Below the pieces are notes generated by a model that saw only the letters and a list, made by a program, of their open reading frames with translations, ran no database searches and had not been told where the DNA came from. Shown here piece after piece: positions 58,105 through 62,426 of a DNA stretch of 64,000 bases. This stretch comes from Halalkalicoccus sp. CG83 (GTDB taxonomy: Archaea > Halobacteriota > Halobacteria > Halobacteriales > Halalkalicoccaceae): assembly GCF_037081715.1 (NCBI RefSeq), contig NZ_JAZDDH010000002.1:248001-312000 (forward strand). The letters are read 5' to 3'. Both the position numbers and the translations under genes were made by a program. Within the stretch, counting starts at the first letter, position 1. Each line of letters begins with the position of its first letter.

Positions 58105-58434
58105 TCAGGCCGACCCCATCGGCCGGATCTGTTCGAGTTCGACCTCGATGTGAACGCCATCGGGGAGCGACCGCTGGGCCACCTGGCGGGCGACGTCGTC
58201 GTGGCCGACGATCTCGAGCGTCCGGGTGTAGACGGTGTAGCGCCACGACGAGAAGCCGTCGCCCTCGCCGGTCGTCCGTTTGTACTGCGGGACGCCGAGT
58301 GTCCGCGGCGGCTTCGGGTGCGGCCCCTTCAGCTCCGCGCCCTTTCGCTCGACGAACGTCGAGATCGACGAGACGACGTCGTCGAGCACCGCTCGATCCC
58401 CGCTCTGGAGCGTGAGTTTCGTGACGAAGGTCAT
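58105..58434 (-). CDS. Ribosomal protein uS10-like paralogue (109 aa)
   Basis: Shows the S10 fold: a starting strand MTFVTKLTLQSGDRAVLDDV, then the loop KGPHPKPPRTLGVPQYKRTT, similar to the PLPTK-type loop of uS10, and a final strand VHIEVELEQIRP. It lies outside any ribosomal operon, next to amidohydrolase and ATP-grasp genes. Haloarchaea appear to carry a second, divergent S10-like gene of this kind; whether it enters the ribosome or has another role is not known. It is on the same strand as both neighbours with 38- and 43-bp gaps. Confidence 0.75.
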   Translation of the reverse strand: MTFVTKLTLQSGDRAVLDDVVSSISTFVERKGAELKGPHPKPPRTLGVPQYKRTTGEGDGFSSWRYTVYTRTLEIVGHDDVARQVAQRSLPDGVHIEVELEQIRPMGSA

Positions 58435-58477: not shown

Positions 58478-59557
58478 TTACCGCACGTCGTGCTCGCGGT
58501 AGAAGCGCTCGACCCGCTCGTCGACACACAGTGGCCCGTGAACCTGCAGCGACTTCACGCCGGGGTAGTTGTTCGCCTCGATGATCTCGAACTCGCCCTC
58601 GTTCGTCACCACTAGATCCCACCCGGCATAGGGCAGGTACGGGACCGAGTCCGCCACCTCGAGCAGCCCCTCGAGCACCCGCCCCCAGCCGGGGATCTCG
58701 ACCCCCTCGATTCTCGCCCCGGTGTCGGGATGGGTCTCGCGCCACGTGAGTTCGCCGTCGAACGGGTAGATCACGGCCTCGCCGATTCGCCCCTGCTCGT
58801 CGACGAGCGCGCTGAGCCCGCCCTGCGACCAGTTGTCCATCGGCTTCGTCTCGTCCGTTCCGATCCGGTGGATCGCCCGCGCGAGGAACGGTTCGTCCCG
58901 CTCTGTGTCCCACATCGTCACCGCCCGGACGGTGTTGGTCGCCTCGGGGTAGATCGACTCGGCGTACTCGGCCTGTCGGGTGAAGTCGGTGACGACGTAG
59001 TCCTCGAGGTCAGCGAGGCGCTCGCGCAGGTCGGCCCGAGAGACGGGCTCGCCGTCGAGCCGGTAGCCCTCGTCAGTTCGGGTACACAGCAGGACGTTGT
59101 GGCCGCCGCCGCCGATCACCCACTTCATCACGACCGTTTCGCCCGCGTCGAGGTCCTCGACCCACTCGATGGCGGGTCGGGTCGGTCCGCGGTCTCCCTC
59201 CGAGGAGATCGAGCGGAACGTGCCGTCGGTGATGATCCCGTGAAGCTCGGGTAAGCGATCGGAGAAGCGGCTCAGGACGCCGTAGAGCATGAGCTTGTTG
59301 TCGAGCGCGTAGCCGAACCGACCGTTGATCCCCTGCGTCTTCACGAAGCGCTCGTAGTCGGTGAGGTAGTCCCGCGAGTCGTAGCGATCGAAGTCGTAGA
59401 GCACCGCTGCATGGCTCAGGAACCCTCGTCGCCAGTAGTCGATCCGCTCCGTGGGCGAGAGCGAGGTGTACTCCCAGGAGCGTCGTTCCTCCTCGGCCAG
59501 CGTCCGTAGCTGTCGTATTCCGTGATAGATCTCCTTCGGTGTCAGGTTCACGTTCAT
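58478..59557 (-). CDS. ATP-grasp protein, sugar-transfer-associated type (359 aa)
   Basis: An ATP-grasp ligase: ATP-binding VVMKWVIGGGGHNVLLCTR region (about residues 141-160), an acidic metal site PYAGWDLVVTNEGEFEIIEANN, and the final NYPGVKSLQVHG. N-terminal residues 1-125 are helical (EIYHGIRQLRTLAEEERRSW). It resembles the sugar-transfer-associated ATP-grasp family that adds amino acids or acids to glycan intermediates. ATG 59557 (MNVNLTPKE) is used. It is divergent from the Nudix gene at 59671. Confidence 0.82.
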   Translation of the reverse strand: MNVNLTPKEIYHGIRQLRTLAEEERRSWEYTSLSPTERIDYWRRGFLSHAAVLYDFDRYDSRDYLTDYERFVKTQGINGRFGYALDNKLMLYGVLSRFSDRLPELHGIITDGTFRSISSEGDRGPTRPAIEWVEDLDAGETVVMKWVIGGGGHNVLLCTRTDEGYRLDGEPVSRADLRERLADLEDYVVTDFTRQAEYAESIYPEATNTVRAVTMWDTERDEPFLARAIHRIGTDETKPMDNWSQGGLSALVDEQGRIGEAVIYPFDGELTWRETHPDTGARIEGVEIPGWGRVLEGLLEVADSVPYLPYAGWDLVVTNEGEFEIIEANNYPGVKSLQVHGPLCVDERVERFYREHDVR

Positions 59558-59670: not shown

Positions 59671-60096
59671 ATGACTGTCGAGGCGACAAGCGCCGGCGCG
59701 ATCCTCTTTCGGGATACGCGTGGTCGGCGCGAGTATCTCCTCCTCAAGAGTCGCCCGGGGGACTGGGAGTTCCCCAAGGGCGGCGTCGAGGACGGAGAGG
59801 AACTCCAGCAGACCGCGATTCGCGAGGTGAAGGAGGAGGCCGGCATCGAGGACTTCCGTCTGATCGACGGCTTCCGGGACGAGTACAACTACGTCTTCCA
59901 GGCCGACGGCCAGACGATCCACAAGACCGTTCACCTGTTCATCGCCGAGTCGTTCGAGGCGAGCGCCGAGCTCTCGACCGAGCATCGCGACCTCCAGTGG
60001 CGCGACTACGAGCAGGCGATCAACACCATCACGCAGGACGGTCCCCGGGAGATCCTCGAAGACGCCGAGGAGTTCCTCGACGAGAACGGCTACTGA
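59671..60096 (+). CDS. Nudix hydrolase, Ap4A-hydrolase-like (141 aa)
   Basis: The Nudix box GGVEDGEELQQTAIREVKEE (residues about 37-56), followed by AGI, has the conserved Glu residues for Mg2+ binding. EFPKGGV before it and a domain of about 140 residues fit the bis(5'-nucleosyl)-tetraphosphatase group, which removes Ap4A. ATG 59671 (MTVEATSAGAIL) is preferred, with a TATA-like TCTCTTAAC about 26 nt before. The divergent ATP-grasp gene shares the 113-bp spacer, but no functional link is established. Confidence 0.91.
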   Translation: MTVEATSAGAILFRDTRGRREYLLLKSRPGDWEFPKGGVEDGEELQQTAIREVKEEAGIEDFRLIDGFRDEYNYVFQADGQTIHKTVHLFIAESFEASAELSTEHRDLQWRDYEQAINTITQDGPREILEDAEEFLDENGY

Positions 60097-60219: not shown

Positions 60220-60831
60220 ATGACCGCCCGCACCGATTCCGGAACGACTCTCGCGGCGATCACGAACCGAGCCCGCGGCTTCTGGACGTACTACCGGCGG
60301 TACACGAACACCGCGATCCACGCGGCGGCCACGGCGGCGCTGACGGCGTTCGGCCTGTTGATCTTCATCGACCCCTCGTTCGCGTGGCTGGCGATCGCCT
60401 CCTACCTCCTGCCGCCGGTGGTGCTCTACGCCATCGGGAGCGACGCCGGGTCCGACCGGTCCGCCGACGTCGAGCCGACCGACGGACCCGTCCGGACCCG
60501 AGACGATCGAACGACCCTCGTCGACGGCGGCCCGGACTCCGGCGCCGGCTCCGGTGGCACTGATACGGACGGCGACGCGGACCACGATGGCCCCGATACC
60601 GACGCCGACGGGACGGACGTCGATCGTGACGGCTCCGATGCCGATAGTGACGGTTCGGACGGCGACGCCGACGGTCGGGATCTCGATTACGACGGCCCCG
60701 ACCTGGATCACGACGGCCCCGATCGGGACGCCGACGGGACCGACTCGGACTCCGACTCCGACGGCCGGGACGCGGACGCCGACGGCGCCGACGTCGACCG
60801 CGACGGTCCGGACCTCGATCGTGACGGGTAA
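60220..60831 (+). CDS. Membrane protein with a repetitive Asp/Gly tail (203 aa)
   Basis: Residues 1-25 are charged, then a hydrophobic segment TAALTAFGLLIFIDPSFAWL and a second AIASYLLPPVVLYAIG (a hairpin of two helices), then an almost pure acidic repeat of about 100 residues (DADHDGPDTDADGTDVDRDG is one stretch). Its DxDxDG pattern resembles calcium-binding thrombospondin-type or dockerin-like repeats. It could be a surface or cytoplasmic calcium buffer. ATG 60220 is preceded by a nine-codon frame whose stop overlaps it. Confidence 0.68.
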   Translation: MTARTDSGTTLAAITNRARGFWTYYRRYTNTAIHAAATAALTAFGLLIFIDPSFAWLAIASYLLPPVVLYAIGSDAGSDRSADVEPTDGPVRTRDDRTTLVDGGPDSGAGSGGTDTDGDADHDGPDTDADGTDVDRDGSDADSDGSDGDADGRDLDYDGPDLDHDGPDRDADGTDSDSDSDGRDADADGADVDRDGPDLDRDG

Positions 60832-60897: not shown

Positions 60898-61932
60898 ATG
60901 GCGCGCGAGCGGACCGACCACGAGTTCGGATTCGAGCTCCGGGTCTGCCGGTGGGTCGAACGGGCCTGGGAGCCCGTAGACGAGGCGGCCGTCCTCGTCT
61001 CCCGCCAGCTCGGCACCCGCGAGCGGCGCTGGGACACGATCGTCGTCGAGGTCGACCCCGAGGGACTGACCGAACGCGAAAAGTTCGGGCGCGAGCGCCT
61101 CGATTCGGACCTGCTCTTCGTCGTCCGAAACGCGCCAGCCGACTGGGCGTGGTATCGCGACGCGCTGCCGGATCCCGGCTACCCGTGGCGCTACGTCCGC
61201 GAGTCGATCCACGAGGCGAACGATCGAGGGATCCTCGACGTCCGTCGGAGCGGCAATCGGATCGAGATCCGTCGACGGTGGGAGTACCCCGATTGGGTCG
61301 GGCGGATCGTCGCCATCGAGAACAAACCCGACCTGGACGCCAGCGCCGCGAACGCGCTGGCCGACCAGATCGAACGCGACGTCGCGCTCTCGCTGGCCGA
61401 CGAGGTGTGGGTCGCCACCCGGCGGACGGGCGAGCGGGTCGAACCCGCCCTGTTCGAGGACCTACCCGTCGAGGCCGGGATCCTCGCGTTCGACCCCGAG
61501 GGCGGCGACGCCGACGTCGTCTGGCATCCCCGGACGCTCGATCCCGCCTCCCCCGGGACCCGGATCATCGACCGGCCGGACGCGGGCGCTCACGACCGTT
61601 CGGCGGCGCGCTTCGAGTACCTCCCGCCCGAGGAGAAGGCGAAGACGCGCCTCGCGATCGCGGAGCGTGCCTACGAGCGGGGCTGGCGGTCGTACGTCGA
61701 CACCATGCGCCCCGACTGCCGGCACTTCGAGGGACGGTTCGCGTCGGGAGCGTTGCTCCCGTGGTGTGTCGCGAAGGACCGCGAACAGAGCGCCGCCGAG
61801 TGCTCGGGATCGTGTGGCGAGTTCGAACCCGAACCGCCCGCCTGGCGGACCCGCGGCCCGCCGATCGAGGGCGGACCCGGCGCGGGGATCCGACGCCTGC
61901 TCGACCGCCGGCGCGAGCGAACGCGTCCCTAG
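60898..61932 (+). CDS. DUF5787 family protein, probable PD-(D/E)XK plus Cys-cluster nuclease-like (344 aa)
   Basis: Visible features: FELRVCRWVERAWEPV N-terminus, Asp46 in RRWDTIVVEVDPEG, then GRIVAIENKPDLDASAANAL with Glu141-x-Lys143, then ADQIERDVALSLADEVWVAT, which follows the pattern D...ExK...Q of RecB/Cas4-type nuclease domains. Four C-terminal Cys (Cys274, 290, 302, 306: PDCRHFEG, LPWCVAKD, AECSGSCGE) could hold an iron-sulphur or zinc centre. The DUF5787 name is from memory. The last four bases overlap the convergent DUF5797 gene. Confidence 0.72.
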   Translation: MARERTDHEFGFELRVCRWVERAWEPVDEAAVLVSRQLGTRERRWDTIVVEVDPEGLTEREKFGRERLDSDLLFVVRNAPADWAWYRDALPDPGYPWRYVRESIHEANDRGILDVRRSGNRIEIRRRWEYPDWVGRIVAIENKPDLDASAANALADQIERDVALSLADEVWVATRRTGERVEPALFEDLPVEAGILAFDPEGGDADVVWHPRTLDPASPGTRIIDRPDAGAHDRSAARFEYLPPEEKAKTRLAIAERAYERGWRSYVDTMRPDCRHFEGRFASGALLPWCVAKDREQSAAECSGSCGEFEPEPPAWRTRGPPIEGGPGAGIRRLLDRRRERTRP

Positions 61933-62426
61933 TCTTCCTCGCGAGCCTCGACCCGGACGTCGTCGCGGGCGGCAGCCCGCCGAAACGTCGGAACGCTCCG
62001 GTACTCGACCTCGACGACGCCCTTTCGCTTGAGGCTCTGGAGCGCGGAGCGGACCTCCTCGGCCGCGGGGTCGACGTCGTACGCCTCGCGCAGGTCGTGA
62101 AGCACCGAAACGACGCTCTGTGAGCGCTCCTCGGGCCCGGCGAGCACCTCGAACGCCTGGCGCTCGAGTCCCGAGACGCGGATCACCGTCTCGCCGTCGC
62201 CGCCCTCGACACCCGGCTCGACGTCGACGAGCTCCGCGGCCTCGGGGGTCGCGCGGATCAGGCTGTTCTCGTCGCGGTAGTAGTACTCCGAGAGCTCCTC
62301 CTCGAGATAGCCGTGGACCTCGCTCCCGCTCTCGAGCCCCCAGCGTTCCTGCAGCTCCGAGTTCTTCGTCGGCTGCAGCTCGACCACGTCCGCGAGGCGC
62401 GCTCTAGCCTCCTCCGAGAGGGTCAT
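61929..62426 (-). CDS. DUF5797 family winged-helix-like protein (165 aa)
   Basis: A haloarchaeal protein with two helix-turn-helix-like modules: ARLADVVELQPTKNSELQER (residues 9-28) and SVLHDLREAYDVDPAAEEVR, then LKRKGVVEVEYRSVPTFRRA, a wing. It is probably a DNA-binding or adaptor protein, function unknown; family name from memory. ATG 62426 (MTLSEEARAR) is used. It converges with DUF5787, overlapping by 4 bases, and the two families are named as neighbours only by position here. Confidence 0.72.
   Translation of the reverse strand: MTLSEEARARLADVVELQPTKNSELQERWGLESGSEVHGYLEEELSEYYYRDENSLIRATPEAAELVDVEPGVEGGDGETVIRVSGLERQAFEVLAGPEERSQSVVSVLHDLREAYDVDPAAEEVRSALQSLKRKGVVEVEYRSVPTFRRAAARDDVRVEAREED

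Follow-up and report, generated by a model that had tools for sequence, protein, structure and literature searches.

Cas4/AddB/Dna2-type iron-staple nucleases and the PD-(D/E)XK superfamily, including NucS/EndoMS and Hjc, are the described systems closest to the gene analyzed here. In Cas4 and AddB the cluster is bound by one N-terminal and three C-terminal cysteines, all of which are required (PMC3466216). Nucleases of the PD-(D/E)XK superfamily present, in order, a Glu in helix A, an Asp that opens a strand, a hydrophobic strand carrying (D/E)-x-K, and a helix carrying Gln. The DUF5787 family (PF19100) has the same order in common with them, but differs in having no detectable sequence or profile similarity to them, a probable winged helix between its Asp strand and its ExK strand, and an additional C-terminal four-cysteine (Cys4) element. 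With the iron-staple nucleases it shares the ExK-Q core motifs and a C-terminal cysteine cluster; unlike them it has no Pfam match and no helicase or CRISPR genes among its conserved neighbours. Pfam assigns no function to PF19100, a literature search found no paper naming DUF5787 or its neighbour DUF5797, and no PADLOC or NCBIfam model matched DUF5787.

The gene lies at 60898..61932 on the plus strand of the window, a 64,000-nucleotide stretch of Halalkalicoccus sp. CG83 DNA, and encodes a 344-aa putative PD-(D/E)XK-type nuclease referred to here as DUF5787 paralogue A. Its product matched PF19100 at E=3.9e-121 with 404.4 bits against a gathering cut-off of 25, covering positions 1-278 of the 278-position model. 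Both this protein and its paralogue B are full-length members far above the cut-off. Because the Pfam model begins at residue 33, helix A and its Glu9, Glu13, and Cys17 fall outside it. Convergent with this gene is a DUF5797 gene of 165 aa (61929..62426, minus strand), which matched PF19110 at E=7.2e-78 (260.4 bits, cut-off 25). The tail-to-tail overlap of the two genes described in the first-pass annotation was found to span 4 bases, 61929-61932.

The proposal of a nuclease in that annotation was built on Asp46, Glu141, Lys143, and Gln157, together with cysteines 274, 290, 302, and 306, and all eight residues were located at exactly these numbers. Conservation was assessed first in an alignment that joined 39 A-type with 28 B-type sequences (67 in all, the B types having 31-37% identity to the window protein) and then in a larger collection, drawn from all loci, of 111 distinct DUF5787 sequences besides the window protein. 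Residues E9, E13, R36, Q37, G39, R43, D46, E141, N142, K143, P144, and Q157 were invariant in the 67-sequence alignment, as were C274, C290, C302, and C306. Twelve residues were tested in the wider set (E9, E13, R36, Q37, D46, E141, K143, Q157, C274, C290, C302, and C306) and every one was invariant in all 111 sequences. Conservation of the Glu-x-Lys pair and of the cysteines was absolute across both paralogous families, which leaves this part of the annotation standing. Three further conserved residues had been missed, namely Glu9 and Glu13 together with Cys17, which fall in a predicted helix A segment (60922..60948, plus strand) delineated from the alignments and from a helix at residues 8-23 in a low-confidence model. 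Downstream on the same strand follow the candidate catalytic Asp46 at a strand start (R-R-W-D-T-I-V-V-E; 61033..61035, plus), the candidate (D/E)-x-K of Glu141-Asn142-Lys143 (61318..61326, plus), and Gln157 in the next helix (61366..61368, plus).

A pattern composed of an invariant Glu, an invariant Asp before a strand, a hydrophobic strand ending in (D/E)xK, and a Gln 8-22 residues later was present in DUF5787 and in 0 of 17 neighbouring haloarchaeal families, a small control that carries no P-value. Of the nuclease alignments, that of NucS, the positive control, displayed the entire pattern, Hjc all of it except the Gln, and Cas4 and PDDEXK_1 less than all of it. Asp132, which sits in the YPDW just before the strand, was considered as the catalytic Asp and rejected because several homologues have Glu at this position, whereas Asp46 never varies.

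AlphaFold models were of low confidence for both the full-length protein (23 sequences; pLDDT 44.3, pTM 0.28) and the core alone (residues 1-215; pLDDT 43.8, pTM 0.36), paralogue B having been left out of the sequence input. The full-length model contains a helix at residues 8-23, strands at 32-40 and 43-52, helices and a hairpin up to residue 126, a strand at 134-141, and a helix at 148-163. This predicted order of helix-strand-strand-insert-strand-helix, of low confidence and only suggestive, would fit the alpha-beta-beta-beta-alpha-beta core of PD-(D/E)XK enzymes, its second and third strands being separated by an insert. A Foldseek search of the core model against the PDB returned nothing at E<=0.001 and some weak winged-helix matches that were not counted towards the nuclease core, a PDB profile search was empty, and a profile search with consensus sequences from which the insert had been cut out found nothing. 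Furthermore, hhalign gave no signal against Cas4, PDDEXK_1, Hjc, and NucS; the same test overlooks established PD-(D/E)XK pairings, for example Hjc with NucS, and its negatives therefore carry little weight. Motif order and conservation favour the nuclease proposal of the first-pass annotation, while none of the profile searches led to a known nuclease and the AlphaFold models were poor. A PD-(D/E)XK nuclease is likely but unproven.

The insert between the two candidate catalytic strands (residues 78-131; 61129..61290, plus strand) reads as helical segments leading into a hairpin with the sequence RGILDVRRSGNRIEIRR, and in the low-confidence models it comprises a helix at 97-109 and strands at 113-118 and 121-126. 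The segment alone gave a weak match to PaaX (0.062), and DUF5797 was the best of 17 profiles aligned to the insert profile (hhalign E=7e-4). Together, these two results make it likely that the insert is a winged helix. The DUF5797 family (PF19110) differs from DUF5787 in having no catalytic motif, and the window copy of DUF5797 is without cysteine.

The best explanation, to which a probability of about 0.6 is assigned, is that the DUF5787 proteins are metal-dependent phosphodiesterases of the PD-(D/E)XK kind and form a family specific to haloarchaea, held in two copies and probably serving a housekeeping function. For the catalysis, metal, and substrate of such an enzyme we infer an arrangement in which Glu9/Glu13 of helix A, Asp46, and Glu141 would bind one or two Mg2+/Mn2+ ions and Lys143 and Gln157 would position the attacking water and the phosphate. 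The winged-helix domain between the two catalytic strands would grip nucleic acid, and the four C-terminal cysteines would hold a structural Zn2+ or an Fe-S centre. Paralogues A and B would both perform housekeeping on nucleic acid, either DNA or RNA, and not act in defence; DNA maintenance is the most likely task, slightly favoured over RNA-end processing because of the winged helix. A part in DNA repair, as raised in the first-pass annotation, is possible. Alternatively, the protein may be no nuclease at all, being instead a DNA-binding regulator or another metal enzyme with a convergent acidic/Lys motif, its Cys4 element a zinc finger. This alternative is consistent with the lack of a profile or structural match to any nuclease, and a regulator would suit the winged-helix and Cys4 parts. 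However, E, D, ExK, and Q are absolutely conserved in both paralogues, where they follow the order of a nuclease and adjoin the matching predicted secondary structures, and they would be unnecessary in a pure regulator, which renders a non-nuclease function unlikely.

Among the genomes sampled, DUF5787 occurs in nearly all haloarchaea and nowhere else. Of the 292 genomes examined from the class, 289 carried it, all but three of the 289 listing at least two matches; among genomes with three matches, G026 includes a gene split in two pieces. A sample of the phylum yielded DUF5787 in 32 of 33 genomes of the same order and in 0 of 164 genomes outside the class, and of 14 control genomes Haloferax volcanii alone contained it. 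The three class genomes without either DUF5787 paralogue (G021, G217, and G285), all of the same order, also lacked DUF5797 and any close Nudix homologue. They may belong to lineages that branched away earlier than the origin of the locus, or their assemblies may be incomplete.

Paralogues A (the window type) and B are about 35% identical and both retain all motif residues; the second member in the window's own genome (L002) is about 36% identical to the window protein. According to a tree of the 39 A and 28 B sequences, the two types are split with 100/100 support. Both were found across the sampled families, indicating a duplication older than those families, and the A/B pattern suggests vertical inheritance. 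Since nearly all haloarchaea have kept two copies whose separation predates the divergence of the sampled families, A and B probably do housekeeping work. A search of viral contigs and phages found no relatives of DUF5787, and the single plasmid copy, on NZ_CP031306.1, an 828-kb replicon from Natronorubrum bangense, carries no annotation beyond 'DUF5787 family protein'. Nearly all haloarchaea, the tractable Haloferax volcanii among them, have retained the pair, which is absent elsewhere in the sampled phylum and combines the full residue set of an active nuclease with no known role. If confirmed, it would provide a further core enzyme for haloarchaeal DNA/RNA maintenance (high salt, high ploidy, strong UV), and the residue list (E9, E13, D46, E141, K143, Q157, and the four cysteines) makes the question directly open to mutation.

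Gene neighbourhoods were compared across 75 loci of paralogue A. In 66 of them A is preceded on its own strand by a Nudix gene, sometimes separated by gaps of 20-60 bases. Six of the nine absences have less than 1.5 kb of upstream sequence (giving 66 of about 69 resolvable loci), and the real absences are L038, L208, and L217; two genomes (G002 and G033) carry the Nudix gene elsewhere. In the window this gene (59671..60096, plus strand) encodes an Ap4A-hydrolase-like Nudix hydrolase with 82-90% identity across the class. The protein matched PF00293 at 8.4e-20, its best solved relative was the Ap4A hydrolase 3i7u (6.4e-16), and matches to Dcp2 and RppH were weaker. Paralogue B is flanked by an aIF2-gamma cluster (divergent; 29 loci) and by a PhnP-like metallo-hydrolase (convergent; 34 loci).

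These neighbours are consistent with a role in RNA-end or cap processing, whereby the Nudix enzyme would remove a nucleotide cap (Ap4A-, NAD- or ADPR-type), DUF5787-A would trim or degrade the RNA, and B would perform a related job beside the aIF2-gamma/RNA polymerase cluster. Support comes from the same-strand position of the Nudix gene, from its Ap4A hydrolase relatives, from the genes adjoining B, and from the NAD-capped RNA reported in Haloferax volcanii (PMC10663502). The case is, however, one of gene neighbourhood, in which the Nudix gene is unlinked in the two genomes named above and the genes adjoining B are divergent or convergent, not co-directional with it. Winged helices more often bind duplex DNA, which also counts against RNA as the substrate, and on balance an RNA-processing role is considered unlikely but a serious alternative. 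The Nudix gene is a more suggestive partner of DUF5787 A than DUF5797. A speculative extension of the nuclease reading, to which little probability is given, is that DUF5787-A and -B would be core nucleases dating from the base of the crown haloarchaea, with a winged helix in the PD-(D/E)XK core and a new Cys4 element, and that A and the Ap4A-type Nudix enzyme would together make up a haloarchaeal pathway devoted to processing nucleic-acid ends that are capped or damaged.

DUF5797 is convergent downstream of A in 64 of the 75 loci, and 6 of the 11 absences are attributable to short flanks (64 of about 69 resolvable). The gaps between the two genes are variable, and Halorubrum and a few others have no DUF5797 in the flank downstream of A, so it is not required beside DUF5787. 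The pairing of the two genes put forward in the first-pass annotation therefore survives as a conserved convergent arrangement that is probably positional, whereas the variable gaps and the downstream absence in Halorubrum make a functional pair weak. The winged-helix character that had been attributed to DUF5797 finds support in sub-threshold PqqD/GntR/TrmB matches at residues 99-147, which give the protein a winged-helix-like C-terminal half.

Other genes near paralogue A in the window were also compared. A gene with a ribosomal S10 domain is found upstream of A on the opposite strand in 56 of the 75 loci; in the window it occupies 58105-58434 (minus strand), and its product scored 54.8 versus 96.25 bits, far below true uS10 models. 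This gene, conserved beside the Nudix gene in those 56 loci, is an S10 paralogue. A sugar-transfer-associated ATP-grasp protein encoded at 58478-59557 (minus strand) was present in 0 of 75 other A loci examined and is probably a lineage-specific insertion. Between the Nudix and DUF5787 genes lies a gene for a membrane/Asp-Gly-rich protein of 203 aa (60220..60831, plus strand) that is hydrophobic in its N-terminal part and contains long Asp-Gly-rich repeats; a tblastn search with its N-terminus matched loci of this genus only (L227-L230).

The C-terminal element, Cys274-x15-Cys290-x11-Cys302-x3-Cys306 (61717..61815, plus strand), is a probable Zn/Fe-S site whose four cysteines are all among the residues invariant in 111 sequences. 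The first-pass annotation had likened it to the Cas4/AddB cluster, and with Cys17 of helix A a formal 1+3 set does exist in 109 of the 111 sequences. In two B members (L083 and L203), however, Cys17 is replaced by Ala, showing that the N-terminal cysteine is dispensable in DUF5787, while the four strictly invariant cysteines are all C-terminal. Furthermore, none of the 67 DUF5787 members matched PF01930 or PF12705 at E up to 10, and a search of the window's own genome gave no match to either model. Despite the ExK and Q that follow the hydrophobic strand, this departure from one N-terminal plus three C-terminal cysteines, along with the missing Pfam matches and hhalign signal, led to rejection of the comparison, and membership in or close relationship to the Cas4/AddB/RecB group with its iron-sulphur staple is very improbable. 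The conserved cysteines are most simply read as a self-contained Cys4 site that would hold Zn or Fe-S. Within 61717-61815 (plus strand), the initial portion of the cysteine region also gave a weak match to DUF7140, a 42-aa domain (best 0.0015 among members), suggesting that the element may be a wider haloarchaeal module.

The notion that DUF5787 is an anti-phage defence nuclease regulated by DUF5797, which takes up the defence role raised in the first-pass annotation and is in keeping with a haloarchaea-specific candidate nuclease and with a DUF5797 N-terminal domain inside a giant helicase/REase protein matching defence models, was rejected on distribution and is scarcely credible, since a near-universal, vertically inherited pair fixed at two copies in almost the whole class, with conserved synteny, no PADLOC match, no viral or phage relatives, and one plasmid copy, is unlike a defence gene. 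The giant protein itself is encoded by open frames in two other haloarchaeal genomes, L234:2110-11988 (minus strand, 3293 aa) and L235:1949-11299 (minus strand, 3117 aa), which are alike where compared. Pfam domains of the L234 frame include a type III restriction helicase, the DUF5797 N-terminal domain (residues 790-869), HNH_repeat, DUF4011, an AAA helicase, and the MTES_1575 nuclease, and the frame gave strong PADLOC matches to PDC-S37 and Hhe, indicating that the first half of DUF5797 is also a module of a likely defence protein.
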